This document shows positions 1,641-29,389 of a stretch of 64,000 bases of DNA, one piece after another. The DNA comes from a virus, in the IMG/VR virus record IMGVR_UViG_3300027749_000112, positions 1 to 64,000 of that record; one strand, written 5' to 3'. Numbering within the stretch: the stretch's first letter is position 1; every line of letters begins with the position of its first letter. A model generated the notes under the pieces. That model searched no databases, had not been told where the DNA came from, and worked only from the letters and a program-made list of their open reading frames with translations. The position numbers and the translations under genes were made by a program.

Positions 1641-1934
1641 CTAATCTTGGAACACGCGGGTCAGTGCGCCATTAGCATCATAACTCAGGTCGAGATAATA
1701 GACCTCCGTGCCGTTCTGCTTGAACGTGATGTAGGTCGGCTTGGTTGGATACGAGCTGTTATTATACTGAAAAACGACATCGTTGTAGGGAGGGATTTGT
1801 AGTCCAGAAAGAAACGTGACGGGGAGAGGGTTTTGCGCGGAAGCGGCTACGGGATTCCCCTGCGGATCTAAGAATACCTCAGCATCAGCTCCTACCGGCT
1901 TCGTGAAACCACCTATTGTTGTGATGTCGCTCAT
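1641..1934 (-). CDS. Hypothetical small tail-region protein (97 aa)
   Basis: This 97-residue soluble protein has no signal peptide or membrane segment. It begins Met-Ser-Asp-Ile-Thr-Thr and has a beta-rich, aromatic C-terminal half. It lies between two large cysteine-rich fibre genes and ends 10 bp before the next start. GTTGAC sits 15 nt upstream of its ATG, close to the spacing of the late-gene motif. I do not recognise the family; position suggests a fibre-associated structural protein. Confidence 0.6.
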   Translation of the reverse strand: MSDITTIGGFTKPVGADAEVFLDPQGNPVAASAQNPLPVTFLSGLQIPPYNDVVFQYNNSSYPTKPTYITFKQNGTEVYYLDLSYDANGALTRVFQD

Positions 1935-2034
1935 GACTTATTCAGTCATGTCAACGATAGCTTCATTAGCTCACGGGCAACCCCACTGACCAGTAGCCTC
2001 GTTGTACACGAAGAAGACATCACATCCTCGCATC

Positions 2035-4074
2035 CTACCAACTTTCCCCCCAATACGGGGTGTCAGGGCAGTTATATTGACCAGTAGCGTCGTCGTATAT
2101 CCTGAAACCGCGCCCGCATCCGCAGCCGTACTCAAAATTGAAGCTGTTGCAAACCCCATCGCAATACCATGTCTGTTCGTTATTACAGCAAGTTCCATTA
2201 GCGTCTGCTACAATTCCACTATTACAAACACCATCGCAGCCCCTATCCACATTTGCGCAATCCGCGCATCTAGTATAGCAAGTATATCCACACGAATCGC
2301 CATAGACAGACTCGGGATCTACCCCATAAGGGCAGATGTCTGGATTAACACCACCATCCTGGCACGGCGTCCAGTAATCGCAAGGATTGGGCCACCACGG
2401 GAAATAGCAGTTTGTAGTGCATGCCGTAGTTCCGCAGGCCATATAGTCAACGGGATACTGTCCTGTGTTATAGCAGTTGTTTTGATCAAACCAACCGGAG
2501 GGGCATTCCCCCCCAGAAAGGCAAGGATCAAGCGGTGGCTCGGCGCATTCGTAGCATGTGACCCCCCTGCAGCCAGCAAACTCTATAGGGATTGGGGTAC
2601 TAGATGTGCCATACGGGCAATCCGGCGAGTTGGGGGAGTGGAACCCACCCTGGCATGGACAATCAGACTTGGGTAGGCAACCACCATAGCAAGTGTTGGA
2701 ATAAGTTGAGCAGGCGCAAGAGGGATAGGCAGTTGCCGGATCAACCCCAAAGGTATTTGGCCCATAGCAGTCGCTATCTGTCACAGAGCTATCAGGGCAA
2801 TCACACGGACACTCTGCCGGAACTATGACTGGAGCTGATGTAACGGATCCGTACTTACAGTCTGCCGTGAAGGTATATCTACCTCCCGAACCAGAAACGA
2901 CGCTTACGGCCTTGCCGAAAACTTGATTTTGCCCAGGTAGAAGCATGCAACTACCAAGCCCATGAACACTCACGATCACCCCACCCGATGCCCTGCCGCC
3001 AATGACTGTATCCACCGTTGTGCTCAAGCTAACTGTTATTTCGAGATGCATCACTGCATAGCACGAAGTATCGGATGTCAGGCAGCTATCGGCGCTTTCT
3101 GCGTAAATGGAGAGGGTTGGATATTGCGTTGGTTCCAAGGGAGGGCGCTTTGGCACTTCATTGCCACCGCCACCGCCACCACCACCTGCTGTTCCACCAG
3201 ACCCATCTCCTCCTCCTGGCGGGTTATTCGCTCCACCGCCACCACCAGAACTACCACCAGAACTACCACCTCTGGGTGGATTTGGGTCAGCTCCCAGTTG
3301 TGGTGATGGAATACGCGGTTGCGGGGGGATGACTGGAGCGGCGATAACCAGAACTACTGCCGAATTGCCTTCTGCATCTATAGCTTCAACATTGTAATTG
3401 AGTGACCCATCAGTAGGTTGAGAGTAGCTCCAGTTTCCAGAACTATTGACCAACACAGAATGATCTACCCCATTGATGGTGAGCGTAATGGTGGAGTTGG
3501 GAGTGGCCGTGCCAACGATTGTCAAAATTCCTCCTGCAACTACAGAAGAAGTAATGCCGATCTTAACATCTGTTTGAGAGGAGTATGAGAGATCAATATT
3601 ATAGCTGGCACCGCTGCTAGAGGGTTGGGAGTAGCTCCAGTTTCCAGAACTATTGACCAACACAGAATGATTTACCCCATTGATGGCGAGCGTAATAGTG
3701 GAGTTGGGTGATCCAGTCCCAGAAATCACCAAATTGCCGCCCGTCACGACTACTTGAGTAATCACCGGAGGCGTTGGGAGTGGCGGAATAATCTGACCAG
3801 GATACGCATCGCTTGTCCAATCAGCGGCCCTCAAGTCATCTTCACTAATTTCAACAGGAGACCCTGGAATACTACCTCCATTTGGGCCTATCGAAGCATT
3901 AGCGACTAAGCCAAAGGTTTTAACAACATGATTAGGCGAGCTTTTGACCCAGGCCCCACCAACCCAATAGATCCATCCTGATGACCATGCGGCGCGGCGG
4001 ATAGGGCAACCAGCAAAGCGCGCTTCTCCCCACAGATGCGCGCCAGCAAGTTGTGCTGCCGTTAGGCGCGTCAT
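2035..4074 (-). CDS. Ig-like and cysteine-rich tail fibre protein (679 aa)
   Basis: Residues about 1-60 form a Trp-rich head. Residues about 105-260 contain two copies of a bacterial Ig-like repeat, each with the string VLVNSSGNWSYSQP. A Gly-rich linker follows at about 280-320, then a region of about 350 residues with several dozen cysteines. Its last part repeats the Cys-Asp-Gly-Val-Cys-Asn-Ser and Asp-x-Asn-Gly-Thr-Cys-Cys motifs of the left-edge gene. The ATG overlaps the preceding stop as ATGA, so translation is probably coupled. A disulfide- or metal-stabilised adhesin at the tail tip is the simplest reading, but it is an inference. Confidence 0.75.
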   Translation of the reverse strand: MTRLTAAQLAGAHLWGEARFAGCPIRRAAWSSGWIYWVGGAWVKSSPNHVVKTFGLVANASIGPNGGSIPGSPVEISEDDLRAADWTSDAYPGQIIPPLPTPPVITQVVVTGGNLVISGTGSPNSTITLAINGVNHSVLVNSSGNWSYSQPSSSGASYNIDLSYSSQTDVKIGITSSVVAGGILTIVGTATPNSTITLTINGVDHSVLVNSSGNWSYSQPTDGSLNYNVEAIDAEGNSAVVLVIAAPVIPPQPRIPSPQLGADPNPPRGGSSGGSSGGGGGANNPPGGGDGSGGTAGGGGGGGGNEVPKRPPLEPTQYPTLSIYAESADSCLTSDTSCYAVMHLEITVSLSTTVDTVIGGRASGGVIVSVHGLGSCMLLPGQNQVFGKAVSVVSGSGGRYTFTADCKYGSVTSAPVIVPAECPCDCPDSSVTDSDCYGPNTFGVDPATAYPSCACSTYSNTCYGGCLPKSDCPCQGGFHSPNSPDCPYGTSSTPIPIEFAGCRGVTCYECAEPPLDPCLSGGECPSGWFDQNNCYNTGQYPVDYMACGTTACTTNCYFPWWPNPCDYWTPCQDGGVNPDICPYGVDPESVYGDSCGYTCYTRCADCANVDRGCDGVCNSGIVADANGTCCNNEQTWYCDGVCNSFNFEYGCGCGRGFRIYDDATGQYNCPDTPYWGESW

Positions 4075-5879: not shown

Positions 5880-5890
5880 GACTACTCCTA

Positions 5891-6946
5891 TTAACCGAGG
5901 CTGTCCGCCTCTTTAGGGTTCGCCGCCACGTTATAGGCGACATATCCTGATGGGTCGGAGATTTGGTTTTCTATATCGAACTGAGACAGACGAACTCTCA
6001 GCACAAAGTCATCCCCGACCGGAGTAGTTCCTGGGATCAGGTTTGGAGTGCGGGAATAAAGACTTCTAAATCCGCTAATCCCTTCAACGGTTCGCCTGAA
6101 CGTAATGCCAAGTGAATGATCTGTGGTGACATCGGTGATGACCACCTGCTGATCGATTGCTGGAGGAAGGTACTCGTAGGCCTTCAAGTTAGGCCCGATT
6201 GAACCTGGAGACACATCATCAACCCTCTGGCCGAATTCCATAATCACACTCCATACGCACGCGCTTTGAGCGCTGATTGAGCGGAAGGAAAAGACTCGGG
6301 AGAGCTTGAATTGCTCGCCTACTGGTAATCCCTGAAGTGTGAATGGAAACGTATAAATAGTCCTCTCGAAGGCTGTGGGGTAATAAGATGAGGAGGATTG
6401 CGTGTGGATCCACCCGCCCGATCCGCCTCCGCTAGAGGCATCTGAATAGATGACACCATTGGCATCAGCAATCTTGAAAGTGGTGCCGCTTGATTCAGCG
6501 ATACGATACCGAACCCCCGTGCCACTGAAGTTGATTGATTGCCCATTGCTGGTCATGGTCGCGTTTACAAAACCGTGCAGCTCCAGCGTCTCCCCATTGA
6601 TAAAAAAGTGCGGCTTGGCTGTGGTGAAAACTCCCGCTTCAAGGGATACAACCTGATAAGTAAGGCTAGGCTTATTCTTGAGTCGATAGAACCCCATGCC
6701 ATTACTACTGAAGTATTCTCCATTACGGATCGATCCAGCAGGGAAGTTCCCTTGAGCTGGCAGATTGATCGCGTTTCCAGTTGCGTTCTTAAAAAGCAGT
6801 CCGGTAACTTCCTGTGGATTGGGAAGCGTATACACCCCACCCGTCAGGATAATGTCCATTGCGGTTGTCGCATGAACAGCAGGCAACAGCCCCATCGAGG
6901 GCTGAGGTAGCTGTGTGATTTTTGAGAGGCCTCCAGTAAGTAGCAT
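5891..6946 (-). CDS. Hypothetical tail/fibre protein (351 aa)
   Basis: The start codon overlaps the upstream stop by one base (TAATG), so the two genes are translationally coupled. The protein is rich in Gly, Ser and Thr, without membrane segments. The middle part (about residues 125-170) has a run ending in Thr-Phe-Lys-Ile-Ala-Asp-Ala-Asn-Gly, resembling short beta repeats of phage fibre and baseplate proteins. Position between two fibre genes supports a distal-tail role. No domain can be named with certainty. Confidence 0.65.
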   Translation of the reverse strand: MLLTGGLSKITQLPQPSMGLLPAVHATTAMDIILTGGVYTLPNPQEVTGLLFKNATGNAINLPAQGNFPAGSIRNGEYFSSNGMGFYRLKNKPSLTYQVVSLEAGVFTTAKPHFFINGETLELHGFVNATMTSNGQSINFSGTGVRYRIAESSGTTFKIADANGVIYSDASSGGGSGGWIHTQSSSSYYPTAFERTIYTFPFTLQGLPVGEQFKLSRVFSFRSISAQSACVWSVIMEFGQRVDDVSPGSIGPNLKAYEYLPPAIDQQVVITDVTTDHSLGITFRRTVEGISGFRSLYSRTPNLIPGTTPVGDDFVLRVRLSQFDIENQISDPSGYVAYNVAANPKEADSLG

Positions 6947-9543: not shown

Positions 9544-9580
9544 ATTACCTAACCCCATGTCAACCGATCCCAAGGCCTAT

Positions 9581-15155: not shown

Positions 15156-15969
15156 ACCCCTTCGGCCTTTCGTCAACATTAGAAACAACCCTGCTCCAAT
15201 ACTGCACATCTGCCTTGGCGTGGGCTAACTCAGGGGATATGCCCGGATGCTCAGCTAGAACTTCCTGTGCAATAGCATCGATGGATGCTGCTCGTTTTAC
15301 TAGGTGCCTCTCAAAGCGCATCTGATCAGTCGGCGTCCAGATTTCCGACTTACCTCCCTCCATCTGATAGAAGACCGTATTCATCCAATAAAGCTCACCG
15401 ATGCCCATATTCCATGCTTCTTTGGATGAGCGGCCGGCGGACTTGCAGTAATAGGCAACAGCCTCTAGCGAGTCATCGATCTGACGGTCGGCCCCCTCGC
15501 CCATGGCAGCCTCTGCATTGGCTCCCCTTGCTTTATTCAGGTCGCCCTCGTCCTGAGTGATGGCGTAGAGGGCTTCGTAGGCTTCGGCAAGTCGCTGCTT
15601 CGATGTCGCGCAGGAACTCCAGAGCTTAGGCGGAGAGTAGTAATCGTTCAGATACTTCGTGAACTTAACCATCTCGCGATCCCACCTGGTTCCGATGTGG
15701 CAGATGTTCCACCATAATTGCCACCAACCAGGCATCTTTGCGGATGGCAGCTTGGCTGGATGAGGGTACTCGCTTTGGCACACTTGAACCGCAAGCCAGA
15801 GATCCCAGTTGCCGGCCCCGCCTAGGAGGATCTTAGAGTTTACCCATTCAAGCTGGAGCTTATGCCAGGACGAGAAAGCTTTGAGCCTCTTTCCTAGAAT
15901 CGCGTGGGACTGAGAGTGCAGAAAGGCTTCTGCAAACCTCTCATCAAAGAGGTAGGTACGCTCCTCCAT
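15148..15969 (-). CDS. Probable tail assembly/chaperone-position protein (273 aa)
   Basis: It lies between the tail proteins and the tape measure, where phages encode tail assembly chaperones, but at 273 residues it is longer than usual and no frameshift site is seen. It has Trp-rich helices in the N-terminal half and a helical, charged C-terminus. The start is odd: TCCTCC-TTTAT-GGAGGA forms a perfect stem around the ATG, placing the start codon in a small hairpin and a GGAGGA just inside the gene. The role rests on position only. Confidence 0.6.
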   Translation of the reverse strand: MEERTYLFDERFAEAFLHSQSHAILGKRLKAFSSWHKLQLEWVNSKILLGGAGNWDLWLAVQVCQSEYPHPAKLPSAKMPGWWQLWWNICHIGTRWDREMVKFTKYLNDYYSPPKLWSSCATSKQRLAEAYEALYAITQDEGDLNKARGANAEAAMGEGADRQIDDSLEAVAYYCKSAGRSSKEAWNMGIGELYWMNTVFYQMEGGKSEIWTPTDQMRFERHLVKRAASIDAIAQEVLAEHPGISPELAHAKADVQYWSRVVSNVDERPKGYG

Positions 15970-15978
15970 AAAGGAGGA

Positions 15979-16344
15979 TTAAGCACCACCGCCACCACCA
16001 CCACTACCACCGCCGGACTCGACTGCTTTTCCAGTAACGCTAGCTTTGGCGAAATCTTCAGCCGTAGCCTTGAGGTTGGAAGAAACGATCTTTCCAGAGA
16101 TTCCGGCAACGGTTATGGCGCCAGAAAGGGCCGGAGGCGCAAACGTGCTGACATATCCGGTGGCGGAAAGGGTTCCCACTTTCTTGCCAATTAGCATTGC
16201 CTTGAGTTCACCTTGGCCGTCCTTAGCCTGAACGATTGTCTTAAATTCGACTTCAGCCGATGACGACGTGACTTCGCTGAGGCCAGCTACGGTAGCCGTA
16301 TTGCCAACGGCCGCGCTTGTTCCTGCAATAGTAGTGAGAGCCAT
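15979..16344 (-). CDS. Tail tube-like protein (121 aa)
   Basis: It is a beta-rich protein with a C-terminal run of glycines. The central pattern, L.IG..V...S.TGY followed by G..G.I and EDF.K, matches the next gene upstream (16349-16720), so the two look like tandem paralogues. Position before the tape measure and after the tail terminator fits a major tail or tail tube protein. Which of the two forms the tube cannot be decided from sequence. Confidence 0.65.
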   Translation of the reverse strand: MALTTIAGTSAAVGNTATVAGLSEVTSSSAEVEFKTIVQAKDGQGELKAMLIGKKVGTLSATGYVSTFAPPALSGAITVAGISGKIVSSNLKATAEDFAKASVTGKAVESGGGSGGGGGGA

Positions 16345-16348
16345 GAGA

Positions 16349-16720
16349 TTAGAGGGTAGGAGCGCCTAGTCCTTCGTAAGTGACCTTGGTGAAGTCTTCG
16401 TTGGACTGAGAGGTGCTGATTTTTGTTGGATAGATATTGCCAAGCCCAGCGACTGGGTGAGTGAAGGTGCCGGAAGAAGTTAGGTCGCCAAAAGCAGCGG
16501 TGGCGCTTCCGTATCCGGTAACAGATACCTTCTGGATTTCTCCGCCAATCAAGACATCATCAAGGGCGCCATCGGAAGTCATGTGATCGATTTGGATCGA
16601 ATACTCGCGGTCGGCAGTGAACTCGATTACGTCAATGCCAGCGGGGCCGGTTGCGGTTGCTCCATTATTGACGCCAAAGGCCCAATTTTTAGTTCCGAGC
16701 TTAGAAATTGCAGTTGCCAT
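16349..16720 (-). CDS. Tail tube-like protein (123 aa)
   Basis: The frame is open to a TTG at 16741, but the ATG at 16720 is a better start and has GTTGAC exactly 16 nt before it. It shares an IG...TGY...G.G.I...EDF.K pattern with its downstream neighbour. The protein is small, soluble and beta-rich, as expected for a siphovirus tail tube protein. It follows the tail terminator-like gene by 21 bp. Confidence 0.65.
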   Translation of the reverse strand: MATAISKLGTKNWAFGVNNGATATGPAGIDVIEFTADREYSIQIDHMTSDGALDDVLIGGEIQKVSVTGYGSATAAFGDLTSSGTFTHPVAGLGNIYPTKISTSQSNEDFTKVTYEGLGAPTL

Positions 16721-16741
16721 ACCTCTTGATGGGTTCGTCAA

Positions 16742-17143
16742 CTACAACGCTGACGCCCCAACCTTCAGCTCCAGGATCTCTGCGCGAGAACGGGACGCAA
16801 CCTCAGAGCGTTGTGCTGGGAAGGAGCTTCCATAGATCAGAAGGGTTGCGCTTTCGTAGCCATTTAGGGGCTCACCTGCAGTTGTGGCCCAATCATGCAG
16901 GATTCGCACTGCCCCCTGTGCCCATGACACAGGATAGCCGTCCACGGGAGCCACTACACGAAGCTCTAAAGAGACAAGGAAGCGTGACCCCCTAGGATCA
17001 GCATTGCCAGCAACGACGCTGACATAGCGATCTGGACGCTCGGCATCGGCGGCCCCAGCAAAGGTTGGAACATCGAGTATTCCAGCGTTATTCAGAAATG
17101 CCGCCAACTCGCCCTCCAATGCAGCTCGTACATCAAGGCTCAT
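16742..17143 (-). CDS. Tail terminator-like protein (133 aa)
   Basis: It starts with a helix (Ala-Ala-Leu-Glu-Gly-Glu-Leu-Ala-Ala-Phe-Leu), then has beta strands and a second helix with a Trp-Ala. That is the general build of lambda gpU-like tail terminators, which cap the tail tube and join it to the head. Its position, between a head-tail protein and the tail proteins, is as in lambda. The assignment rests on order, size and pattern. ATG overlaps the upstream stop by one base. Confidence 0.6.
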   Translation of the reverse strand: MSLDVRAALEGELAAFLNNAGILDVPTFAGAADAERPDRYVSVVAGNADPRGSRFLVSLELRVVAPVDGYPVSWAQGAVRILHDWATTAGEPLNGYESATLLIYGSSFPAQRSEVASRSRAEILELKVGASAL

Positions 17144-17496
17144 TAGAATTCAGCTCTCCCAGTGCCGGCCGTGGACTCGCAATGGAGAGCGAGCGTGCTG
17201 CCAAGGTTCTTCATGAAGACGATACGGAAGACCCCTGGTGATGCCCCTAGATTGATCGTGACCGGCATCCCGACCGAAAGGCCTCCCCATGCGGCTCCTG
17301 CAGTCAGGTCGGAAAGGCGAACCTCTACCCGTAGGGACTCAGTACGCGAGATGCCTCCATATTGGTCTACCTGCTGCCCTTTGGATTCAGGAGACACAAC
17401 ACCGGTCACTGCATGCGTGCCGACCAGGATGGCCTCTCCGCACTCAGCAAAGGCCGAGTCATCAGACAAGGCAAGGGCTGCATCGAAGGGGCTCAT
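17143..17496 (-). CDS. Head-tail connector-like protein (117 aa)
   Basis: This beta-rich protein starts Met-Ser-Pro-Phe-Asp-Ala-Ala-Leu-Ala and has Phe-Ala-Glu-Cys-Gly-Glu-Ala near residue 15, a pattern often seen in small gpFII-like head-tail joining proteins. It is the first gene after the terminator and tRNA downstream of the capsid gene. It therefore needs read-through or its own promoter. GTTGAC lies 17 nt before the ATG. Confidence 0.6.
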   Translation of the reverse strand: MSPFDAALALSDDSAFAECGEAILVGTHAVTGVVSPESKGQQVDQYGGISRTESLRVEVRLSDLTAGAAWGGLSVGMPVTINLGASPGVFRIVFMKNLGSTLALHCESTAGTGRAEF

Positions 17497-17524
17497 ATTC
17501 TCTTACCCCTTTCGTCAACAGGCA

Positions 17525-17561
17525 CGAAAAAGCCCTCCGGTTACTAGAACCAGAGGGCTTA
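17525..17561 (-). terminator. Rho-independent terminator after capsid/tRNA
   Basis: On the minus strand AAGCCCTC-T-GGTT, a CTAG loop, then AACC-G-GAGGGCTT form a stem of about 12 pairs with one mismatch, followed by TTTTT. It lies downstream of the capsid gene and tRNA, so it can end the head-gene transcript or attenuate transcription into the tail genes. Confidence 0.85.
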
Positions 17562-17583
17562 ATCTATGCGACCTACACAAAAG

Positions 17584-17657
17584 TGACAGAGGTTGGATTT
17601 GAACCAACGGCCTTCACGGTATGAGCGTGACGAGCTACCAGGCTGCTCTACTCTGTG
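17584..17657 (-). tRNA. tRNA-Met (anticodon CAT)
   Basis: The minus strand folds as a cloverleaf: acceptor CACAGAG/CTCTGTC with a C:C mismatch at the first pair, D-stem GAGC/GCTC, anticodon stem TCACG/CGTGA with loop CTCATAC, and T-stem GTTGG/CCAAC with loop TTCAAAT. The anticodon is CAT. The first-pair mismatch and the D-arm resemble initiator tRNA, but the three G:C pairs of initiators are absent in the anticodon stem. CCA is not encoded. A lysidine-modified Ile tRNA is an alternative. It lies between the capsid stop and a terminator. Confidence 0.88.
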
Positions 17658-17670
17658 TTAATTGTTCAGT

Positions 17671-18627
17671 TTAGGCCCACTGAGTACCGATCAGGTATCC
17701 AGCATTTGGGTTGATGATCTTGGTGACACGGTTGCTGCGAACGCGGATTTTGTCTCCACGGCGAGCCTCGTCACGATACTGATCAGTAGTGAAGAGACCG
17801 CCTTCGCTATCTCCGTCCCAGATGATCGTGCGACCAACACCGCCGGCCATGAAGTCTCCACCCTGGACATCTCCAAGGAACATGTAGTTATTGCCCCAGA
17901 CAGGGAGGATGTTCGTCTTGCCCTTAATGGCGTTGTCGTAAGTCTTGCGAGCCACGATGACGTTAGGGATGCCGAAAGCATCTCCGAGCACCTGAGTGGT
18001 GATATTCGATCCACCCTGAGTCGTGTTCAGGAAGCCATACAGATAGGTCTGCATGAGCTTGCTGCGCTTGATGCGGTTGAAGAGAGAGAGTGAGAGAACA
18101 AGGGTGTTCGGGGTCTCACCAACGCTCGACAGGGACTCAAGAGCCGCATTGATGTCCTGGGGAACGTCAATGGTGTTCAGATTAGCCTCGGTGTATGCGA
18201 CCGAACCGTTGGTGGCCGTGAACTGAGAGGGATCCATGATCGTCTGAGCACAGGCAAGCTCGTAATCAAGCATCACCTTCTGCATGCAGAAATCTGCAGT
18301 GATCATCTCGGCGTCGAAGAAGTCTTTCATCTCCTTCTTAACCTTGTCGTCCACACGCTTCTCGTGGCCGTACTCAGAAGTCGTGTAGCTGTCCCACTCG
18401 AAGGACTCGTCGCTCTCGTTGTAAGTACCGGTAGCGTTGCGGAGCTGGCTCTGATTCTTCAGAAGCTCACCCTTGGCGATACGGAACTTAGGATAACGGC
18501 CGACTTCCTTTGGGCTGTCATAGACAGGGAGGAGGAGCTGACCGATATAGTGCTCTTTCTGATGCACGGCCTCCATGAGGAGAGTGCTGATGTCCTGACG
18601 AGGTACTGAATCTGTTGTATTGAACAT
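17671..18627 (-). CDS. Major capsid protein (318 aa)
   Basis: Length, position after a decoration-like gene, and composition fit a major capsid protein of the HK97 fold, in the lambda gpE-type group. Residues about 60-110 form a charged helical stretch like the E-loop and spine-helix region. The C-terminal third has beta segments and a basic end. The gene precedes a tRNA and a strong terminator, in keeping with high expression. A weak AGGAAA lies upstream of the ATG. Confidence 0.8.
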   Translation of the reverse strand: MFNTTDSVPRQDISTLLMEAVHQKEHYIGQLLLPVYDSPKEVGRYPKFRIAKGELLKNQSQLRNATGTYNESDESFEWDSYTTSEYGHEKRVDDKVKKEMKDFFDAEMITADFCMQKVMLDYELACAQTIMDPSQFTATNGSVAYTEANLNTIDVPQDINAALESLSSVGETPNTLVLSLSLFNRIKRSKLMQTYLYGFLNTTQGGSNITTQVLGDAFGIPNVIVARKTYDNAIKGKTNILPVWGNNYMFLGDVQGGDFMAGGVGRTIIWDGDSEGGLFTTDQYRDEARRGDKIRVRSNRVTKIINPNAGYLIGTQWA

Positions 18628-18656
18628 TGTAGTGTTTTCCTAGTTGAGTTGATTGA

Positions 18657-19016
18657 TTAGATGAACAAGACGCGAATCTGGCCGCCTCCATTGCTGCCTG
18701 CAGGAGCGGACTCCCAGGCGATTGCGACCGAAGCACCAGTTGTCTTCTTGACAAGCGTTCCGTTGGCGGACTGCTCAAGCAGATCGCCGGATGCGATTGC
18801 CGTTGCGTTTCCGACCTGAGCGAAGGAAAGACCATTGGCTTTAGTGAGGAACACTGCGGCAGCAGCACCGGTGACGGCGCCACGGACAAGGGTTCCGATG
18901 ACTAGATCAGAAGCACCTGCGACATCGACGCCGGTAGCAGTGATCTTGAGGAGGACTCCCTCTTTCCCCGAAAGGTCAGAAGCAGCGATTGCAGAAACAA
19001 CAGTATTGTAGTTCAT
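18657..19016 (-). CDS. Capsid decoration-like protein (119 aa)
   Basis: It is a small, beta-rich, Ala/Gly/Val-rich protein just before the major capsid gene, the position of lambda gpD. Its pattern of short strands with Gly-Val-Leu-Leu-Lys and Ile-Ala-Ser-Gly-Asp is like head-stabilising or DUF2190-type proteins. No signal peptide. Assignment is from order and composition. Confidence 0.65.
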   Translation of the reverse strand: MNYNTVVSAIAASDLSGKEGVLLKITATGVDVAGASDLVIGTLVRGAVTGAAAAVFLTKANGLSFAQVGNATAIASGDLLEQSANGTLVKKTTGASVAIAWESAPAGSNGGGQIRVLFI

Positions 19017-19040
19017 GGTTTTTTTATTTGGGGTTGAGGA

Positions 19041-19835
19041 TTAGAGAGAACGGCCTTCGTTCTTCATGGAGAGATACTTGGCGTGGGCCTCGGGGCTCTC
19101 CTTGTGAGCGAGGCGGATTGCCTCGGCTGCGGTTTTGCCGTTCGCTTTATGCTTAATGACAGTCTTCTCGAACTCGGTGATGTCCTCGTTGGAGTTGCTG
19201 AAAACAGCTTCTCCAGTTGCAGAGAATGCAACGGGGCGGGTTCCGGTACGAAGGGCGTGGGCCTGGGCGTCGCAACGAGTTGCGAGCTTGGCATTCAGCT
19301 CTTTGAGTGAGGCGTTCTCGCTGGAAAGCTCGGTGAGCTTGCCTTCGATGGCGGCGAAATGATGCTCGATGAGTGCGTTCTCACTTGCGGCGTCTTCGCG
19401 ATCGAAGCGGGAAGAGAGTTCACGAACTGCACCTTGGAGGGCGGAGAACTCACCGGAAGCTGCACCAACTGCGGCGCCTGCTTCGGCTGGAGCACCTTCA
19501 CCTTCTGCAGCCTCTTCGGCTGGAGTCTCGGACTCTTCGTGACCATTGAGAGCTTCGGCCTGGAGGCCGTGGATGCCAGCAGCGTCCTCTTCGGAGATGT
19601 GACCCTCCTGGACAAGCGTGGCGATCTGCTCATGAGTGAGGGTCAGAAGATCCTCAATGGTGATGTCTTCGTCCTGCTCGTTCTGCTCATCCTGGGGAGC
19701 CTCTTGCAAGGCCTCCTGAAGCTGGGCGTTGAGTTGCTCCTGCGCTTCAAGGCGGCCCTGAAGAGAGGTGAGTTGCGCGAGCACGTCCTGGAGGGAGGGC
19801 TCGGCTTGGATAGCTGGGTTGTTAGTAGTGCTCAT
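19041..19835 (-). CDS. Nested scaffold protein from internal start (264 aa)
   Basis: An in-frame ATG at 19835 (Met-Ser-Thr-Thr-Asn-Asn) falls at the boundary between the protease domain and the Gln/Glu-rich coiled coil. Starting there would give a protease-free scaffold, as Nu3 is made inside lambda gene C. The sequence just upstream has no classical Shine-Dalgarno, though GTTGAC lies 24 nt before. This is an inference from domain layout. Confidence 0.4.
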   Translation of the reverse strand: MSTTNNPAIQAEPSLQDVLAQLTSLQGRLEAQEQLNAQLQEALQEAPQDEQNEQDEDITIEDLLTLTHEQIATLVQEGHISEEDAAGIHGLQAEALNGHEESETPAEEAAEGEGAPAEAGAAVGAASGEFSALQGAVRELSSRFDREDAASENALIEHHFAAIEGKLTELSSENASLKELNAKLATRCDAQAHALRTGTRPVAFSATGEAVFSNSNEDITEFEKTVIKHKANGKTAAEAIRLAHKESPEAHAKYLSMKNEGRSL

Positions 19836-20345
19836 GTGAGTTTCATTTAGGTGTGACGTGTCAACGGAGGAGCTGAATACCGCCTCCAGTAATCCGTTCG
19901 GATTCGCAGCGGGATTCGCCACGACATCCACGGAAATTAGCTCCTTACAACGAGCGGCCGTCTTGCCGTCAGCCCTCTTCTCATCATCGCCCATGAAGGC
20001 GGCAGAGAGGCCGATGCACTCAGGCATACGGGTAGCAAGTTCAATGGCCTGCTCGTATTGGGCGTGTGATTTGAGGAGATGCCAGTCACCCAAGAGGCGG
20101 TTGCCCTCGATGTGGAAATCCGAGAGGTAGCCGCAAACTGCGTCGGCTCCGCTCCGGTGATTCCACTTGACCGGCACCTTACCCATCTTCTGGGCGCATT
20201 CCTTGAGCTGAGTCAGCGTCTTCATGTCCACTTCGAGGTCATGCCCTCGTGCCGTAACGCCGCCCGTTATGATCGATACGTCATGGATGACGCCTGAGAG
20301 GGAATCAACACGACCAATAAGCTGCTGAAAAAACTTTGCTTCCAT
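19041..20345 (-). CDS. Prohead protease fused to scaffold (434 aa)
   Basis: Residues about 1-160 look like a prohead serine protease: KWNHRSG near residue 60 supplies a likely catalytic His, and Ile-Gly-Leu-Ser-Ala-Ala-Phe near 111 the likely nucleophile Ser. From about 180 on the chain is Gln/Glu-rich and coiled-coil, as in scaffolds. This protease-plus-scaffold layout is known from lambda C/Nu3. The ATG at 20345 is preferred over an upstream in-frame TTG and has GTTGAC exactly 16 nt before it. Confidence 0.75.
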   Translation of the reverse strand: MEAKFFQQLIGRVDSLSGVIHDVSIITGGVTARGHDLEVDMKTLTQLKECAQKMGKVPVKWNHRSGADAVCGYLSDFHIEGNRLLGDWHLLKSHAQYEQAIELATRMPECIGLSAAFMGDDEKRADGKTAARCKELISVDVVANPAANPNGLLEAVFSSSVDTSHLNETHMSTTNNPAIQAEPSLQDVLAQLTSLQGRLEAQEQLNAQLQEALQEAPQDEQNEQDEDITIEDLLTLTHEQIATLVQEGHISEEDAAGIHGLQAEALNGHEESETPAEEAAEGEGAPAEAGAAVGAASGEFSALQGAVRELSSRFDREDAASENALIEHHFAAIEGKLTELSSENASLKELNAKLATRCDAQAHALRTGTRPVAFSATGEAVFSNSNEDITEFEKTVIKHKANGKTAAEAIRLAHKESPEAHAKYLSMKNEGRSL

Positions 20346-20380
20346 GCCCAAAGGGGCATGCGTCAACTGGCTACCCAGCG

Positions 20381-20929
20381 CTAGGACTGGTTACTAAGCG
20401 CCCGCTTGAGCGCGCTATGGTGATGAATGGCGTCGGCAAGCTCTCCAATAGCGGTGCCTACTAATGCAGGTGCGATCGGATTGCCTACCGGTGCTCCAAG
20501 CACGGCTCCGGCACCGGCCCCAATGTACTTCCCAGCATTGCGCTTTAGGTGCGCTGCAACTCCCTCTCCTTTCTTGAGGCGAACCATAACATCATTGCCT
20601 AGCGTACCGGCTTCAATGCCATCATAGGCCTTAGCAAACTCCTTGGCCTCGCATTTAGCCGAAAGCTCTACGAGAAGCCGCAGGAAGTCATTGCCCATCA
20701 TGGTCGAGGATCCAGGTGAACTATTCGGCACTGTAGTTTCGACGCCACGGGCGACATTGCCTTTGCGGCGGATCCTATCCATTACCGGCGAGACTTGGGA
20801 TTGCTCCACCTGTTTACGCTGCTGGATGATGGCTGGATTGTAGGCTGCCTGCATGGTGCCCGACCCGATACCATCACCGGCTTCTGGGGAGAACTGACCT
20901 TCGGGGTTGCGGGGGCGGGAATCAGCCAT
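20381..20929 (-). CDS. Putative internal virion/ejection protein (182 aa)
   Basis: It begins with Arg-Asn-Pro-Glu-Gly-Gln-Phe and contains LLVELSAKCEAKEF near residue 84; both motifs have counterparts in two other large proteins of this operon. The C-terminal half has a glycine-zipper segment (Gly-Ala-Gly-Ala-Gly-Ala-Val-Leu-Gly) that could insert into membranes. Such proteins are often packaged in the head and ejected with DNA. That role is an inference. Confidence 0.6.
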   Translation of the reverse strand: MADSRPRNPEGQFSPEAGDGIGSGTMQAAYNPAIIQQRKQVEQSQVSPVMDRIRRKGNVARGVETTVPNSSPGSSTMMGNDFLRLLVELSAKCEAKEFAKAYDGIEAGTLGNDVMVRLKKGEGVAAHLKRNAGKYIGAGAGAVLGAPVGNPIAPALVGTAIGELADAIHHHSALKRALSNQS

Positions 20930-20955
20930 GGCAGTATGTTTGCTGGAATTGGAAA

Positions 20956-22212
20956 TTAGATGGCTGCGGCGACCTTGCCGGCGCCAGCGATGAATCCCTT
21001 AATACGAGAGGCTAGGCCTCCAACCTTCCTGCCGGCGACGTTGCCGAACTTTCCGGCTGCGGCAGCATTGGTCGATTCGCTCGCGATACCTGGATAAGAG
21101 GCGGGATTAAGGCCGGCTCCGAAACCGGATTTCACGTCTTTTCCAAAAGCTCCGTAAGCGTCAGATGTTTTTCCGCCAATTACGCCGTAAGAGTTCTTGA
21201 TCGCATTGTTCGCAAGGGCGGCGCCTCCAACCACTCCGCCGGCAACTGCCACATCAGCGGCAAGCCCCGTAGGGTTGGCCTCTGTCTTCACTCCTGCGAA
21301 TTGGCCGTTAGGGTTGTATGAAGGCACCTGCTTGGTCGGGCTAAAGAAGCCAAGCTCGATCTTACGGGACAGCTCGGTTGCGCGGTCGAGCGCGGATAGT
21401 AAATGCTTATTGTCGCGGATCTCTTGCGCTGACCATTTGCGAAGGGAGCGCATGTGCGCTTCAGCGTCTTCTGTCAGGTGATGGCCTGGAGCGCCAGCGG
21501 AAGTCCCCCAAAACTTGTTCATTGCCTTGCGCACATTCTTGGCGTTACCGCGAAGAGCTGGAGTTGTCGTTCCCTCCACCCCGATATTGGCGAGGAGAGA
21601 GCCCTCGTGGGTGATTGGGATGATCTTTTTTAGCGCAGGGATGGCGAAGTCTCCCCGAGCAAGCTCTTTAGCGCGGTCGAGGGCGGACAGATTGGTTTGA
21701 TCCTGATTATCGGCGATACGCTTGCGGTTGGATTCCCGTGCCCACTTGTATCCTCCGGCCGTACCTAAACCAATGCCAGCCAATCCGCCAATGACCGCGC
21801 CTTTGAGGGCGCGATTTTGAATTATCATCGGGGAAAGCATCAAGTCGCGCCCTGCTCGTTTTGCAAGTTTTTGCTCGATACCATGAGCCGCATAAGAGGC
21901 GCCGGCTCCTATGCCCGCTCCTACTTGGGAGCCAGCAATTATGCCGACATTTTGTTTTGTTCCATCAGTAAACGCATCTCGCTTGCGGTAAACCTGACCA
22001 GCCGCCCTGGCCTCGCCGGCGTTTTTTAAAGACACGGGAATCGCCGCTGGGCCACCCCCAATAGTCATATTGATGCCAACTGCTCGGGCCGAATTTCCTT
22101 CAGGAGTCTGACCCTTTTGGCGGGCAAGCTCTTGGGCTGTGATGGGAATGCCGGAAAATTCTTTAGTAGTGCAACGGGCGGAAAGTTCGACAAGGCGTTG
22201 AATGGGATTCAT
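20956..22212 (-). CDS. Putative internal virion/ejection protein (418 aa)
   Basis: The ATG at 22212 has GTTGAC exactly 16 nt upstream; an in-frame TTG at 22233 is less likely. It opens with RLVELSARCTTKEF, and later has two LSALDRA.ELxR motifs, one followed by a Tyr-Asn-Pro-Asn-Gly-Gln-Phe box. Several glycine-zipper segments (such as Gly-Ala-Gly-Ile-Gly-Ala-Gly-Ala) alternate with charged helices. The layout matches the 182- and 1,184-residue proteins. Membrane-active internal head proteins are the best guess. Confidence 0.65.
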   Translation of the reverse strand: MNPIQRLVELSARCTTKEFSGIPITAQELARQKGQTPEGNSARAVGINMTIGGGPAAIPVSLKNAGEARAAGQVYRKRDAFTDGTKQNVGIIAGSQVGAGIGAGASYAAHGIEQKLAKRAGRDLMLSPMIIQNRALKGAVIGGLAGIGLGTAGGYKWARESNRKRIADNQDQTNLSALDRAKELARGDFAIPALKKIIPITHEGSLLANIGVEGTTTPALRGNAKNVRKAMNKFWGTSAGAPGHHLTEDAEAHMRSLRKWSAQEIRDNKHLLSALDRATELSRKIELGFFSPTKQVPSYNPNGQFAGVKTEANPTGLAADVAVAGGVVGGAALANNAIKNSYGVIGGKTSDAYGAFGKDVKSGFGAGLNPASYPGIASESTNAAAAGKFGNVAGRKVGGLASRIKGFIAGAGKVAAAI

Positions 22213-22233
22213 ACCCAACCGCCGGCCCGTCAA

Positions 22234-22680
22234 CTAGGTTGCGAACCTCTTCCTGAAGTAATAGACATCGCTACCAACGTACTTCACGGGAGGTGCGTAG
22301 AGCTTAAATCCGCATGTGATGAGAGAATTCGCAGAGGCAAGATTCCAATCCATGGCATAGGTGACGATTGCCTTGAATCCCATCCTGGTTGCCATATTGA
22401 TGCGCGACTTGATCAGCTTCTTCTGGATGCCATTGCCTCGATGGGCCTTCAGGACGCCAGAGCGAACCATGTAGGCCATGTCCTTATGGCAATCCATGAC
22501 TGCGGCCCTCATGGCGGCATAGGCTATTGCTTTGCCGTCATCGTCACGGGCTATCCACCACCAAGAATCCTTGAGATCAACTTTGGGGGATCCTGCAAAG
22601 ATGATCTTATCAAGGCGTACTACCTCCTTCTGCACCGATGCCGGCATGTGATCGGGTGATGCTTCGCATCGGATCTTCAT
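22234..22680 (-). CDS. GNAT family N-acetyltransferase (148 aa)
   Basis: The acetyl-CoA binding motif A is clear: VRSGVLKAHRGNGIQKKLI near residues 72-90 (pattern R/Q-x-x-G-x-G/A). N-terminal strands and a C-terminal Asn-Ser-Leu-Ile-Thr-Cys-Gly-Phe region complete the fold. The substrate is unknown. Lying among head genes, it may modify a host or virion protein. The downstream gene starts 21 bp after its stop. Confidence 0.8.
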   Translation of the reverse strand: MKIRCEASPDHMPASVQKEVVRLDKIIFAGSPKVDLKDSWWWIARDDDGKAIAYAAMRAAVMDCHKDMAYMVRSGVLKAHRGNGIQKKLIKSRINMATRMGFKAIVTYAMDWNLASANSLITCGFKLYAPPVKYVGSDVYYFRKRFAT

Positions 22681-22704
22681 GGCGGCAAAGAGATGTAAGC
22701 AAAA

Positions 22705-22956
22705 TCACTTGAGGCGAAAGAAAGATGTCATTCGCCCTTTCTGCTTCTCAGTGCGCATCTCAACCAATCCTAATTGAACCTTTCGTCGTAAACGCTTATC
22801 AACTGAATCCCTCGTAGACCCTTCCGCTGCAGCAACGGCAGTTGATGTGAACCATCCATCGTCAGCCATTTCATCTTGGCTAACGCCACCTATCTCTCTC
22901 GCTAAAGCGGAAAGGGCGGACTCTCTTATTTCATGCGCGGATGGGCGTGGTTTCAT
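22705..22956 (-). CDS. Winged-helix DNA-binding-like protein (83 aa)
   Basis: The frame is open further upstream within the phosphoesterase gene, but ATG 22956 (Met-Lys-Pro-Arg-Pro-Ser) gives a compact protein overlapping that gene by 26 bp. Its pattern, a helix, then STAVAAAEGSTRDSVDKRLR, then a Gly-Leu-Val-Glu-Met-Arg turn and a basic wing, suits a winged helix-turn-helix. It may regulate late genes or act in packaging. Confidence 0.55.
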   Translation of the reverse strand: MKPRPSAHEIRESALSALAREIGGVSQDEMADDGWFTSTAVAAAEGSTRDSVDKRLRRKVQLGLVEMRTEKQKGRMTSFFRLK

Positions 22957-23764
22957 TGGGCGTGTAGGTAATAGGAATGACTGCTGGCAATCCGCCTTCT
23001 GGGGTGGCTGACCAATCCAGCATGGTGACTCCACAAGAGCAGATGGAATCGCCCACGACCTTGTGGCCGTAGCGGGTTAGCACCTGCCAAGCCGGCGTGA
23101 CGATAAAGAGCCCCCTGCCGTCAGAGTAGTGACCACCCGTATGGCGATGGCCTCTTGCATAGACCTGAGGGACGCGATGCCCGGATCTAGCATAGTTCTG
23201 GCGAGCATTGCCCATGGTGATGGACATGGCGCCTGCCTCTAGGTACGCCCTTGAAGAGGTAGCCATGTGATGGGCGACATCGATCAATGTGCCGTTCACC
23301 TCGATTAGGGCCTTGTCGCCGCACCATTCACCCTTGAGCTGGGCACAGATCATCTTCTCGAAGTCGCCAACATGACACTCTGTACCCGCGATGAAGAAAC
23401 GTCGCGTGGCTGCCGCTGCAAGTTTTGAAAGTAAAACTACCGCAGCGGCCGCATGTTCGGTGTTCTTGGAAACCACGATTTCCGTTGTGCCATGATGCCG
23501 ACCCTCCAGAAGGTCTCCATTGCAGATGAGGTAGAAGGGGCGACCTGCAAAGTGACTGAGAACTTTCTCTTCCATGTCTTGCCAGCAATCCCACAGCCAG
23601 CGCTGATGGAGATTGTTCCCTATACCAACGGTGTTGCCGGTATCGGTTTCGCAGTTATCGGGCCAGACAGCGACGGCGCTACCGCAATGGGTATCAGAGA
23701 TAAAGACTACCCCTGGCTGTTGATGGATTTTGGAAATTTCGACTACAGCCTTCTTTTTTTTCAT
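22931..23764 (-). CDS. Calcineurin-like metallophosphoesterase (277 aa)
   Basis: All the metal-ligand blocks are visible in order: Ile-Ser-Asp-Thr-His-Cys-Gly (about 22-28), Asn-Gly-Asp (about 83), Gly-Thr-Glu-Cys-His in the usual GN(H/E) position (about 115), His-His (about 152) and Gly-His-Arg-His-Thr-Gly (about 205). Phage members of this family are widespread but their substrates are mostly unknown. The gene lies between the large head-associated gene and a winged-helix gene, all on one transcript. Confidence 0.85.
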   Translation of the reverse strand: MKKKKAVVEISKIHQQPGVVFISDTHCGSAVAVWPDNCETDTGNTVGIGNNLHQRWLWDCWQDMEEKVLSHFAGRPFYLICNGDLLEGRHHGTTEIVVSKNTEHAAAAVVLLSKLAAAATRRFFIAGTECHVGDFEKMICAQLKGEWCGDKALIEVNGTLIDVAHHMATSSRAYLEAGAMSITMGNARQNYARSGHRVPQVYARGHRHTGGHYSDGRGLFIVTPAWQVLTRYGHKVVGDSICSCGVTMLDWSATPEGGLPAVIPITYTPNETTPIRA

Positions 23765-23798
23765 AAAAATTAGGGTGCAGTCTTATTTTTATCAGCTT

Positions 23799-26700
23799 CT
23801 AGGCTATCTCTCGCTCAACGATATGCAGTCCCTTGCGGCGAATTTCTTCAACGGCATCTCCGTGATGTCCGGTGGGGTAAGAAGTAGATTGATACCTAGG
23901 CCCTTTTGCAGCGGCGGCAACGGGCTTCCCTTTGAGATCGAAGATCCCTTTTCCTGCATTCTTGAAAGGATTGATCGGGAGGCCTGCGTGTGCGCGTGCT
24001 CCAACGATGCCTGCGCCAACACCGGCGGCTCCAACAGCGCCAGCGGCAACCTTTAGAAGAAGCTCGCGGTTCTCCTTTTTCTCATGCCAATCCTTTTCAC
24101 GACGAACTCGAGGCCTGGAGCCTGGAGCGAAAACTCGGGCGCTACGGCCGCGAGGGTCGCGAACATCCCATCCATTGTATTCGGCCCACTGATCAAAAAG
24201 CCTGACTCCGTACTTCTTTCCGAGATCGTCGGCTTTCTTGACTAGCGGTAAGATATGTTTGCGGCCAACTGCGGTGTCCTTAGTCACTTTAGCTGCTCCG
24301 TATAGAGCGGCAGCCCCAGCGGCAGCGCCTACTGTATTCTTGAACCAAGCCTTCTCCCACTCACGTTTGCGGGGGCGACCGGCTGCATCGCGATCGCGTG
24401 GGTTACCAGCAATGACAGATGTGGCGTCACCCACGATTCCCGAGCCTCGACCGCCCCAGCGGTGGATGGCCTTTCCTTGGTTGTAAAATCCCTGAATGGA
24501 TTGACGCACAGGGACTGCAGTTCCCGCATCGTCATCAAGCCCTAGCTTCTCTCGGACAGGATTACGCCATCTGCCTTGAGAGTTTCGGGTCTGGTCAGAA
24601 TAACCGAATTCTTTGAGTAATCCCTGAACCTGAGATTGAAAAGTCTTGGGTTTTTGCTCTTGGATCGCATTCACGGTATCCACTTCCTGCCCCTCATCGG
24701 CAGCGTGCGTTCCGCCTATGATTGCTCCTGCTCCAGCACCGGAAAGTGCCGCTGCTGGAAGCGATGCATTCTTTACGAAAGCTGCTGGGCGCCAGGTCTT
24801 AGCTAGACTGCCAAGATTCAAGCCCGCTGCTTTTGCAATACGAGGAGCCTTGCGGGCCGCCAAGACGCCGGCGGTTCCGAGAACTCCACCGGCAATAGCT
24901 CCGCCAAGGGCAGCACGTTTCATGATAGGTGCCCCCTCTCCCTCTTGGGGATGCCCAAGGATTTGTGTTCCAATCGCTGTCCCGCCACCAGCTAGGGCTC
25001 CTCCTAGCAATGCTCCCTTACCAATGCTCGCCGCCGTACCCGCAAGAGTTGAACCAATCTTTAGTCCAGGGATCGCTCCAAGGACTACTCCTGATCCTGC
25101 GCCTAGAAGGGCTGCCTTGAGGGCTGGATGGATGTTTGTTTTAGGGTCAGCCTTCTCGATGGCCGCAAATAGCTTGGCCTTCTTGGCCGCAAGGATGGCA
25201 GCCGCTGCTGCTCCACCTGCTGCGGGCACGGTCTCTGCGGTCTTGGCCCAACGAGGGCGGTCTCCGTAAATGTCACGCTTGTGGTCGGTAACGGCGCGCA
25301 CACCGAGCACTGATGCCCCGCCTGCGGCAGCTCCAAGGGCTGCTCGGATACCAATCCCTAATTTCTTAGACGGCACCAGGGCTCCTGTAACTGCGCCAGC
25401 TACACCAGCGTTGCGCATATTGTGATCGCGACGATCAAGGTCAGACTCACGGATCTGCTTGATAAAGCGATCATGAGCCACGCGCCCATTGAGTGGAATT
25501 CCATCCTCGTCCGTCTGGAGCGAGAATTCATTTAGCTCTGGAATCATTGGTGAGTTGTCGCTTGGGCAGAACACAACCTGTTGCTGAACTCGGTGATAGG
25601 ACTTTTCAAATCCGCACTGAGGGCAGTAATAAACACGGGAGCGAGAAAACTCCTTGAGCTGGGCCTTGAGATTGGCCGAGAGAGCCCACTTTGGGCGGGT
25701 TTTTAGCTGCTCGACCGGCGCATTGAATCCAGAGACAAACGATTGCTTGGCGTTCTTGATTCGGGTCATCAGAGAATCGCCTGGCTTACTAAGCGGGGTT
25801 GCGGCTAGTCCTGCCTTCCATCCAGCATGGGTTTCCTTTGCCGTGTTTACGGGATCCAAGATGTTATGGACGGCTCCCTTGGCACTCTTGTAGAGCTTGC
25901 CCATATCAGAAGATGGGGCGACGGCATGGGCCGCCTGCTCTCCGGTCACCTTCAAATGGGAGGCAGCAAGGGTGGCTTGATCGAGGGCCGCATTGACTTT
26001 GCTGGAGATGGCAGGTGCATGCTCACGAACCGCAGATGTTATTGCCTTGGCAGCACCGCGAGCTTTGAACCCTGCGTACCCTGCGGCACCGAGAACGCCA
26101 AGGCCGCCAGCCAGAAGGGCACCGTCGCGAGCCTTGGAGAGGCCATCACGCTTTTCGCGGATCACGGTATCAAATTCGGTAGGGGCTGCGTTGGCTTCCT
26201 TCCAGCGGGCATGGGCGGATTTGAACTTTTCCTTCTCACCCTTGGTAAGGTTGGGGTTTTTGGCGATCTCACGAATGTCCTTGGCGTAGGCCTTACCCTT
26301 AGCCTTGAAAGCTCCCTTGGCTTCTTTAGCGGCCTGCGCTTGGGCCTCTTGCACTACACCCTCGCGGGCGATCTTAGCATTGCGCTGTGCGGTGACTACG
26401 CGATTGACGGCGTTGCGAGCTGTCTCGTTCCTCGCGGCTTTGCCGGCCACGCCTCGTAGGGCGAGAGCCCCAATCCCTGCACCTGCTGCGATGCCAGCAC
26501 CTAGGATGCCTGTCTTGATAAACTCCCGACGCTCGCTGGAGTCGGGCTGAGTTGCATAATCGTGAGGGAGCTGAAAGTTCTTCAAGGCCATACCCAAGGT
26601 CGGGTGCGTCAACGCGCCTTCTAACCACTTGGTTAGGCCAAGGGTTTTCCTTCCTTTGTTGGTGCTCTCAATCGTTCCTGAGATCAATTTGCCGATCCGC

Positions 26701-27353
26701 GCGCCGATGGGCATTGATTTATCTGGAGCCTTCGGCCCCAGTAACTGCTTGCTATAAGCCGTAAATTCTTCACCGGCCAACTTGGCTACGGTATCGGCAG
26801 TGCCGCCACGGCGCTGCTGGAGGATGCTATGGACGATCTCGTGCCGCCTCAGTGCCTTTCGGGCTACTGATGGGTTTGCATACGATCTGACGACTCGTCC
26901 AACAGACCCTGTAGAATCTGACAGCTTACTCGTCGGGGAGAGATTGATGATGCCGCCCCTTGCGATGTTCTTAGGCTTAACTCCGGCTGCACCTGCCGCA
27001 TCGATGTAGTAACTTCGCAGGGAGTTGCCAGACTTGGCAGAAGCCTTTTTAACATTTTTCTGAACATCGGATGGGTTTAGGTAGGACGCTAATTTATCAG
27101 CACGGGTTTCATCAAGAATCCCAGGGCGAATATACCCGTCTGGCAGCATGCCCGCAAACTCTTTCGCCGGCCGTTGGTAGATATGAACAAGCCTTGATGC
27201 TTCCTCTCTCAACTTGGGCGTCACGCTGTATGGAACATCTGGATTAAATCGAATGTCATGAATCTTGATGGCCTCATGTTCGGCAAGGCCCCTGACGCTT
27301 TTGGCATACTTAAATGCGATTTCGTGAGCCTTCTGCAGAGGAGTGATCTTCAT
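23799..27353 (-). CDS. Giant HExxH/glycine-zipper virion protein (1184 aa)
   Basis: Residues 1-254 form a separate domain with HEIVH near 170, the zinc-binding motif of metallopeptidases. At Met255 a GTTGAC-N16-ATG element occurs in frame, and about 20 residues later follows Glu-Arg-Arg-Glu-Phe-Ile-Lys and a Gly/Ala helix, like a twin-arginine signal. The remaining 900 residues have many glycine-zipper segments, a zinc ribbon (Cys-Pro-Gln-Cys near 578, Cys-Pro near 594), and LLKEFGYSDQTRNSQGRW, related to motifs in the 182- and 418-residue proteins. The start overlaps the portal stop (ATGA). Likely an ejected internal head protein with protease activity; a fusion of two genes is possible. Confidence 0.7.
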   Translation of the reverse strand: MKITPLQKAHEIAFKYAKSVRGLAEHEAIKIHDIRFNPDVPYSVTPKLREEASRLVHIYQRPAKEFAGMLPDGYIRPGILDETRADKLASYLNPSDVQKNVKKASAKSGNSLRSYYIDAAGAAGVKPKNIARGGIINLSPTSKLSDSTGSVGRVVRSYANPSVARKALRRHEIVHSILQQRRGGTADTVAKLAGEEFTAYSKQLLGPKAPDKSMPIGARIGKLISGTIESTNKGRKTLGLTKWLEGALTHPTLGMALKNFQLPHDYATQPDSSERREFIKTGILGAGIAAGAGIGALALRGVAGKAARNETARNAVNRVVTAQRNAKIAREGVVQEAQAQAAKEAKGAFKAKGKAYAKDIREIAKNPNLTKGEKEKFKSAHARWKEANAAPTEFDTVIREKRDGLSKARDGALLAGGLGVLGAAGYAGFKARGAAKAITSAVREHAPAISSKVNAALDQATLAASHLKVTGEQAAHAVAPSSDMGKLYKSAKGAVHNILDPVNTAKETHAGWKAGLAATPLSKPGDSLMTRIKNAKQSFVSGFNAPVEQLKTRPKWALSANLKAQLKEFSRSRVYYCPQCGFEKSYHRVQQQVVFCPSDNSPMIPELNEFSLQTDEDGIPLNGRVAHDRFIKQIRESDLDRRDHNMRNAGVAGAVTGALVPSKKLGIGIRAALGAAAGGASVLGVRAVTDHKRDIYGDRPRWAKTAETVPAAGGAAAAAILAAKKAKLFAAIEKADPKTNIHPALKAALLGAGSGVVLGAIPGLKIGSTLAGTAASIGKGALLGGALAGGGTAIGTQILGHPQEGEGAPIMKRAALGGAIAGGVLGTAGVLAARKAPRIAKAAGLNLGSLAKTWRPAAFVKNASLPAAALSGAGAGAIIGGTHAADEGQEVDTVNAIQEQKPKTFQSQVQGLLKEFGYSDQTRNSQGRWRNPVREKLGLDDDAGTAVPVRQSIQGFYNQGKAIHRWGGRGSGIVGDATSVIAGNPRDRDAAGRPRKREWEKAWFKNTVGAAAGAAALYGAAKVTKDTAVGRKHILPLVKKADDLGKKYGVRLFDQWAEYNGWDVRDPRGRSARVFAPGSRPRVRREKDWHEKKENRELLLKVAAGAVGAAGVGAGIVGARAHAGLPINPFKNAGKGIFDLKGKPVAAAAKGPRYQSTSYPTGHHGDAVEEIRRKGLHIVEREIA

Positions 27354-29101: not shown

Positions 29102-29346
29102 CAGTTGATTCCGTTGGAAAAGTCAGGGACGGCGTAGTTAGGGGATCCTCTGAAGCGCCACTCATTCCGCACCCTGGTAGCGGCATGGAGGCGGTTCGTG
29201 ACCAGCATCAGATCCTTGGTGTGGGACTTCTCACCGACCGACTGAGAAGTATAAAGGGTTGCCTGTTGCTTCAGCAGAGTGATCTCTGCCTGCAACTCCT
29301 CACCGGAATACTGCCGGTAAATTTCCATCCATTCGGTCGATGCCAT
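29101..29346 (-). CDS. Head-tail joining protein, gpW-like (81 aa)
   Basis: ATG 29346 starts Met-Ala-Ser-Thr-Glu-Trp; the frame stays open upstream but without a better start. It is a helical 81-residue protein with Leu-Leu-Lys-Gln-Gln-Ala and a Phe-Arg-Gly-Ser end, placed just before the portal, like lambda W. GTTGAC is exactly 16 nt before the ATG. As first gene of the late operon it should lie near the late promoter. Confidence 0.65.
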   Translation of the reverse strand: MASTEWMEIYRQYSGEELQAEITLLKQQATLYTSQSVGEKSHTKDLMLVTNRLHAATRVRNEWRFRGSPNYAVPDFSNGIN

Positions 29347-29389
29347 ACTTGCAACACCGGCAGTCAACGGACGGACGAGAAAACCGGAC

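Follow-up and report, generated by a model that had tools for sequence, protein, structure and literature searches.

GTTGAC, a hexamer repeated ahead of late genes in an uncultivated virus genome, is probably the box by which a phage-specific late promoter is recognised; RNA synthesis would start about 12-18 bp downstream and give mostly near-leaderless late mRNAs. The DNA itself shows that the element exists, is conserved, keeps a set spacing, occurs ahead of non-coding genes, follows terminators and is avoided on the opposite strand.

The window, a stretch of 64,000 nucleotides, is part of a 65,199-bp virus record (IMGVR_UViG_3300027749_000112). Its late arm (1-29.4 kb, minus strand) carries genes for a portal (PHROG 21, E 7e-42), a major head protein (PHROG 1005), a scaffold-like protein and tail proteins. 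The plus-strand arm (29.7-42.6 kb; 29744-42561) consists mostly of unknown genes and was taken as early; these genes are mostly devoid of a Shine-Dalgarno (SD) sequence, their leaders being rich in A and C, for example CCAACCAATT-ATG. A second minus-strand arm contains a GpA-type terminase gene, primase/helicase genes and an integrase-like gene, and the phage is therefore probably temperate. Megablast of positions 15000-25000 of the window against a phage collection gave no match. The sole relative found in a cellular genome was located on a contig from a metagenome-assembled genome (MAG) that is labelled Akkermansia, so that the host probably belongs to the Verrucomicrobiota; the phages of the family are uncultivated.

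Nine minus-strand copies of GTTGAC shortly before an ATG had been listed in the preliminary description, and all coordinates and spacings were verified (N16 six times, N15 twice, N17 once). The N16 copies are located at 29363..29368 (ATG 29346, an 81-aa gene upstream of the portal gene and the first late gene), 26608..26613 (ATG 26591), 22229..22234 (ATG 22212, where the box begins at the upstream gene's stop codon), 20362..20367 (ATG 20345, a 434-aa protein read as prohead protease plus scaffold), 16737..16742 (ATG 16720) and 15172..15177 (ATG 15155, a long, probable tape-measure gene, the box lying within the end of the upstream gene). The N15 copies are found at 9559..9564 (ATG 9543) and 1950..1955 (ATG 1934), and the N17 copy at 17514..17519 (ATG 17496), directly after an intrinsic terminator. 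As had been remarked, one box lies inside an open frame: that of the in-frame internal ATG 26591, a predicted nested start within the 1184-aa ORF 23799-27353. The product of this ORF has an H-E-x-x-H stretch N-terminally and a glycine/alanine-rich C-terminal part. Two further minus-strand sites were added: an N15 box at 39050-39055 before ATG 39034 of an ORF antisense to early genes, and an N18 box at 60609-60614 before ATG 60590 of the integrase-like gene. The plus strand of the window contains no such GTTGAC-ATG site. A more widely spaced minus-strand box (N24) is present at 19860..19865 inside the protease/scaffold gene, before the in-frame ATG 19835 (a predicted separate scaffold start).

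Other details were revised. The spacing of exactly 16 nt is a real, fixed spacing whose range is in fact 15-18. GGGT directly before the ATG, reported for four of the six N16 sites, was present at three (15155, 22212 and 26591), the remaining ones reading GGGC, AGGT and AAGT. An in-frame TTG, thought possibly meaningful, occurs at all six N16 sites and at none of the N15 or N17 sites; since N16 spacing automatically places a TTG in frame 21 nt upstream, it is no evidence for an alternative start.

Chance as the origin of the spacing was ruled out by shuffling, by comparison of hexamers and by counts in 17 records. That the motif exceeds chance, as had been proposed, was borne out by 1000 dinucleotide shuffles of the late region: nine GTTGAC-N15-17-ATG sites were observed against a mean of 0.22 and a maximum of 4, and six N16 sites against 0.07 per shuffle. 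Relatives were gathered by portal searches, resulting in 33 viral loci. Absence of the motif from related phages, which would have spoken against it, was not seen: all 13 records of the first set (the window record and 12 relatives) contain it, located on the late strand, and so does every portal-bearing record checked, nearly always on that strand only. When all hexamers were compared in the first five genomes, GTTGAC was by a wide margin the one most tied to an ATG at 15-16 nt (38/91, p = 1e-31), the runner-up being its own overlap TTGACG. In 17 related phage records, 157 of the 269 late-strand copies have an ATG at gap 15-17 (base rate 5.4%), and 52 copies lie on the opposite strand. One-base variants show no enrichment in these records and are hardly tolerated, only A or C in the first position being weakly so. 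At individual genes, the box is present in relatives at the gene start corresponding to ATG 29346, at the same place and in frame for ATG 26591 (G003, G004 and L016) and at ATG 20345 (G003, G004 and G014); at ATG 19835 both the GTT GAC codons and the N24 spacing are retained.

Sequence logos displayed GTTGAC followed by a spacer with almost no features, then a G-run and, ahead of the ATG, a pyrimidine, with no information upstream of GTTGAC. Only a weak signal, present at 38% of linked sites, the G-run fits the GTTGAC anchor about as well as the ATG anchor, which makes placement of the transcription start site (TSS) uncertain. ATGs opening frames of at least 60 codons are absent at gaps 12-14 and number 34, 48, 24 and 14 at gaps 15-18, an onset that is expected if a start codon cannot precede the RNA start. 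A hairpin in the spacer between GTTGAC and ATG, strong in a few sites, was rejected, its mean energy being no better than that of a half-swap control (-3.41 versus -3.30, sd 0.18). At nested sites the codons are fixed to GTT GAC; a protein-level motif there (L-T-x4-G-M; V-D) was discarded as a general cause, since N15, N16 and N17 shift the frame.

The signal is not derived from the host, given its lack of start linkage in Verrucomicrobiota genomes: the motif was not enriched in the MAG carrying the prophage relative (44 matches versus 37 in the control), and GTTGAC was not start-linked in four other genomes. As expected of a late promoter, it is over-represented ahead of late genes, on their strand, and absent from host genes.

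Five phages carry a conserved non-coding RNA of approximately 150 nt: G016 (L135, about 6253-6410), G024 (L134, from 3492), G017 (L132), G018 (L133) and L136. Its ends are complementary (GAGGCG...CGCCTC), and a T-run is present in three. An Rfam search with this RNA gave no match above threshold, and it has apparently not been described so far. GTTGAC marks the left boundary of the homology without variation, some 16 nt ahead of the RNA body, and the flanks further left are mostly unrelated among the five phages. The sequence GTTGAC-N12-GGGGA stands in front of an initiator-like tRNA gene in G008. The box is thus found upstream of non-coding genes (the RNA in five phages, the tRNA in one) as well as coding genes. 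It also stays in place where start codons move. For the gene of ATG 16720 the gap is 16 in the window and 22, 32, 33 and 35 in four relatives, most of these longer-gap versions having SD-like leaders; in terminase-small-subunit genes, the box is kept while the start shifts from gap 15 to 38. Standing before non-coding RNA, a tRNA and genes with an ATG 22-35 nt away, GTTGAC most likely acts on transcription, and its initial reading as a start-codon element was abandoned.

The best surviving alternative is still a translation-initiation element, in which GUUGAC in the mRNA would be bound by a phage protein, rRNA or another RNA and, replacing the SD, recruit ribosomes to an AUG 15-18 nt further on. 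Tight ATG/GTG spacing, the lack of an SD in motif genes and the initiator-like tRNA-Met encoded by several phages agree with such an element, which we nevertheless regard as unlikely, because the box is also found ahead of a non-coding RNA and a tRNA, remains where the AUG moves away and is avoided in antisense DNA, and because the Verrucomicrobiota 16S 3' tail is normal and contains no GUCAAC. SD or rRNA pairing was rejected likewise, the 16S 3' end being the usual GGATCACCTCCTTTCTA; the original view that the motif is no SD therefore holds, complementarity to the 16S tail at 5-10 nt from the AUG being absent. In two of the genomes examined, GTCAAC does occur within the 16S, in an internal stem.

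CAT-anticodon tRNA genes were observed at differing places in six phages of the clade: 17583-17657 in the window (17583..17657, minus strand; tRNA-Met(CAT), initiator-like), 19809-19883 in L023, 7653-7725 in L029, 4892-4962 in L097, 1162-1232 in L084 and 9261-9331 in L102. In several of them position 1-72 is unpaired (C-C in the window, C-A in G008), a hallmark of initiators. These tRNAs are possibly linked to leaderless translation.

Terminators directly precede 11 of 182 linked boxes, compared with 7 of 759 other starts (p = 1e-4), and in 6 of the 11 the T-run touches GTTGAC. In the window, an intrinsic terminator (17525..17557, minus strand; hairpin of -15.7 kcal/mol followed by a T-run) ends a few nt upstream of the box at 17514..17519. 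Where a box follows a terminator so closely, transcription of the next gene should start within approximately 22 bp, unless the RNA polymerase (RNAP) is antiterminated; antitermination could let upstream transcription pass the terminators and counts against the promoter reading.

Orientation was analyzed by codon shuffling. On the opposite strand, GTTGAC is depleted in late genes, where it is antisense (31 versus 88 expected, ratio 0.35), and in early genes, where it is sense (7 versus 25, ratio 0.28), the lowest ratios among the non-palindromic words tested. Corresponding ratios for the late strand are 0.76 in late genes and 1.19 (38 versus 32) in early genes. Avoidance in antisense DNA cannot come from a translation signal, as ribosomes do not see that DNA, whereas a promoter firing against late transcription would be selected against. 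Palindromic relatives of GTTGAC are also avoided in some hosts, and only the orientation bias was therefore taken as evidence of avoidance. Separately, the HincII-type words GTCGAC and GTTAAC were 3-6 fold below the codon-shuffle expectation in the 17 phage records; one of them is also avoided in some host genomes, and this may reflect restriction.

Cleavage of late transcripts at GUUGAC by a phage or host nuclease, which would generate short-leader mRNAs and the 5' ends of the non-coding RNA and tRNA, would cover all three kinds of site alike. Opposite-strand avoidance and the placement right after terminators are left without an account by such processing, and we give it slightly less credence than a translation element.

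That GTTGAC is a classical -35 box of sigma70 whose -10 has gone unseen is very improbable: TTGAC equals the -35 core, yet the -10 (approximately 17 bp after TTGACA) would coincide with the start codon or lie past it, placing the RNA start within the gene, the logos contain no -10 signal and the pattern is absent from host genes. The earlier judgement that this is not a normal sigma70 promoter, its -10 falling on the start codon, is thereby upheld. Equally improbable is a polar mark on the DNA that serves replication, packaging or segregation and lies near starts by accident, which would suit the strong strand bias (269 versus 52 copies) and the ParB-like gene yet gives no reason for the exact 15-18 nt spacing or the position at the non-coding RNA edge.

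For the late promoter that we favor, the form would be GTTGAC, about 12 bp that are A/T-rich near the end, a G-run and Y or A. RNA is predicted to start roughly 12-18 bp past the box, on the G-run or on the A of the start codon. As the box stands 15-18 bp ahead of the start codon, the 5' ends of most late structural mRNAs would coincide with the AUG or lie a few bases from it; such ends are suggested by the gap histogram and the terminator-abutting sites, and these messages would be translated as leaderless. In a minority of late genes the leader would be longer and include an SD-like stretch. The box may also drive the non-coding RNA, the tRNA and nested proteins (scaffold and others), the in-frame boxes of ATG 26591 and of the protease/scaffold gene (N24) giving separate scaffold-type products. 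Expression of the late genes would consequently be divided among many small units, with no single long operon.

A phage protein would redirect host RNAP to read the box. A candidate recognition factor is a 235-aa protein with a C-terminal helix-turn-helix (HTH; 57831..58538, minus strand), and its putative partner is a ParB/Noc-like HTH protein encoded by an overlapping gene (57200..57856, minus strand), the pair spanning 57.2-58.5 kb. The model of the 235-aa protein was of low confidence (pLDDT 62) and a fold search with it gave no significant match; for the ParB/Noc-like protein (pLDDT 80), Foldseek probabilities reached 1.0 at an E of 0.13. The overlapping genes are conserved in ten records, including the divergent G008, whereas seven records, mostly partial ones, lack at least one of the two. 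Co-occurrence makes the pair a candidate and only a lead, since a 40.6-kb record with both genes has a single GTTGAC site. A T7-like RNAP (PF00940) gave no match in 11 records, the control genomes being equally silent, and Sigma70_r2 was not found in the same number of records, so that a recognisable phage sigma factor of the phiEco32 type was not seen. Matches to region-4/GerE-like HTH were below the cut-off and occurred in four records, not in the window. Small LuxR/GerE-like HTH proteins were rejected as the factor, being present in five records only and none in the window.

Short bipartite late promoters are already known from AR9 and phage 7-11. Those of AR9 (AACA-N6-TA/G; PMC5312081) likewise combine an upstream box with a start-site dinucleotide, are spread through the late genes and are in some cases inside ORFs, with possible N-terminally truncated products; AR9 differs in being a jumbo phage with its own multisubunit RNAP, in its shorter box-to-start spacing and in having mapped start sites. 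The phiKZ late consensus is also very short (TATG, G being the TSS, as reported in PMC5312081), but is recognised by the phage nvRNAP and lacks an upstream GTTGAC box. In the sections of PMC8948821 consulted, the late promoters of phage 7-11 (GTAAtg-N16-aCTA) are bipartite, used by host RNAP with a phage factor and directed opposite to early transcription; they differ by a recognisable phage sigma and a TSS 6-9 bp from the promoter element, and those sections contain no start-codon link. According to the same sections, the gp36 promoters of phiEco32 (tAATGTAtA) resemble GTTGAC in having a single highly conserved box with a TSS a few bp downstream, and differ in sequence and in the presence of a phage sigma. 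The GTTGAC promoter is set apart by its sequence, its start-codon link and the lack of a recognisable polymerase or sigma. A literature search retrieved no paper on the motif, which does not prove that none exists, and little on transcription in Verrucomicrobiota phages.

In its fullest form the proposal is tentative and, in our estimate, has perhaps a one-in-several chance of being right as a whole: temperate phages whose late messages, mostly leaderless, come from a minimal promoter made up of GTTGAC and a G-run at the start site, to which an unrecognised HTH/ParB-like factor of two proteins, rather than a sigma, directs host RNAP (no phage polymerase being used), and which encode an initiator-like tRNA of their own for these messages. 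If the promoter reading is true, this late promoter would be unusually compact, consisting of a six-base box with the RNA start on or beside the start codon, and would suggest that the factor recognising it has no detectable resemblance to any known sigma factor. It would also predict late mRNAs without leaders and virion proteins from nested starts, and would correct where genes begin throughout the phage family.
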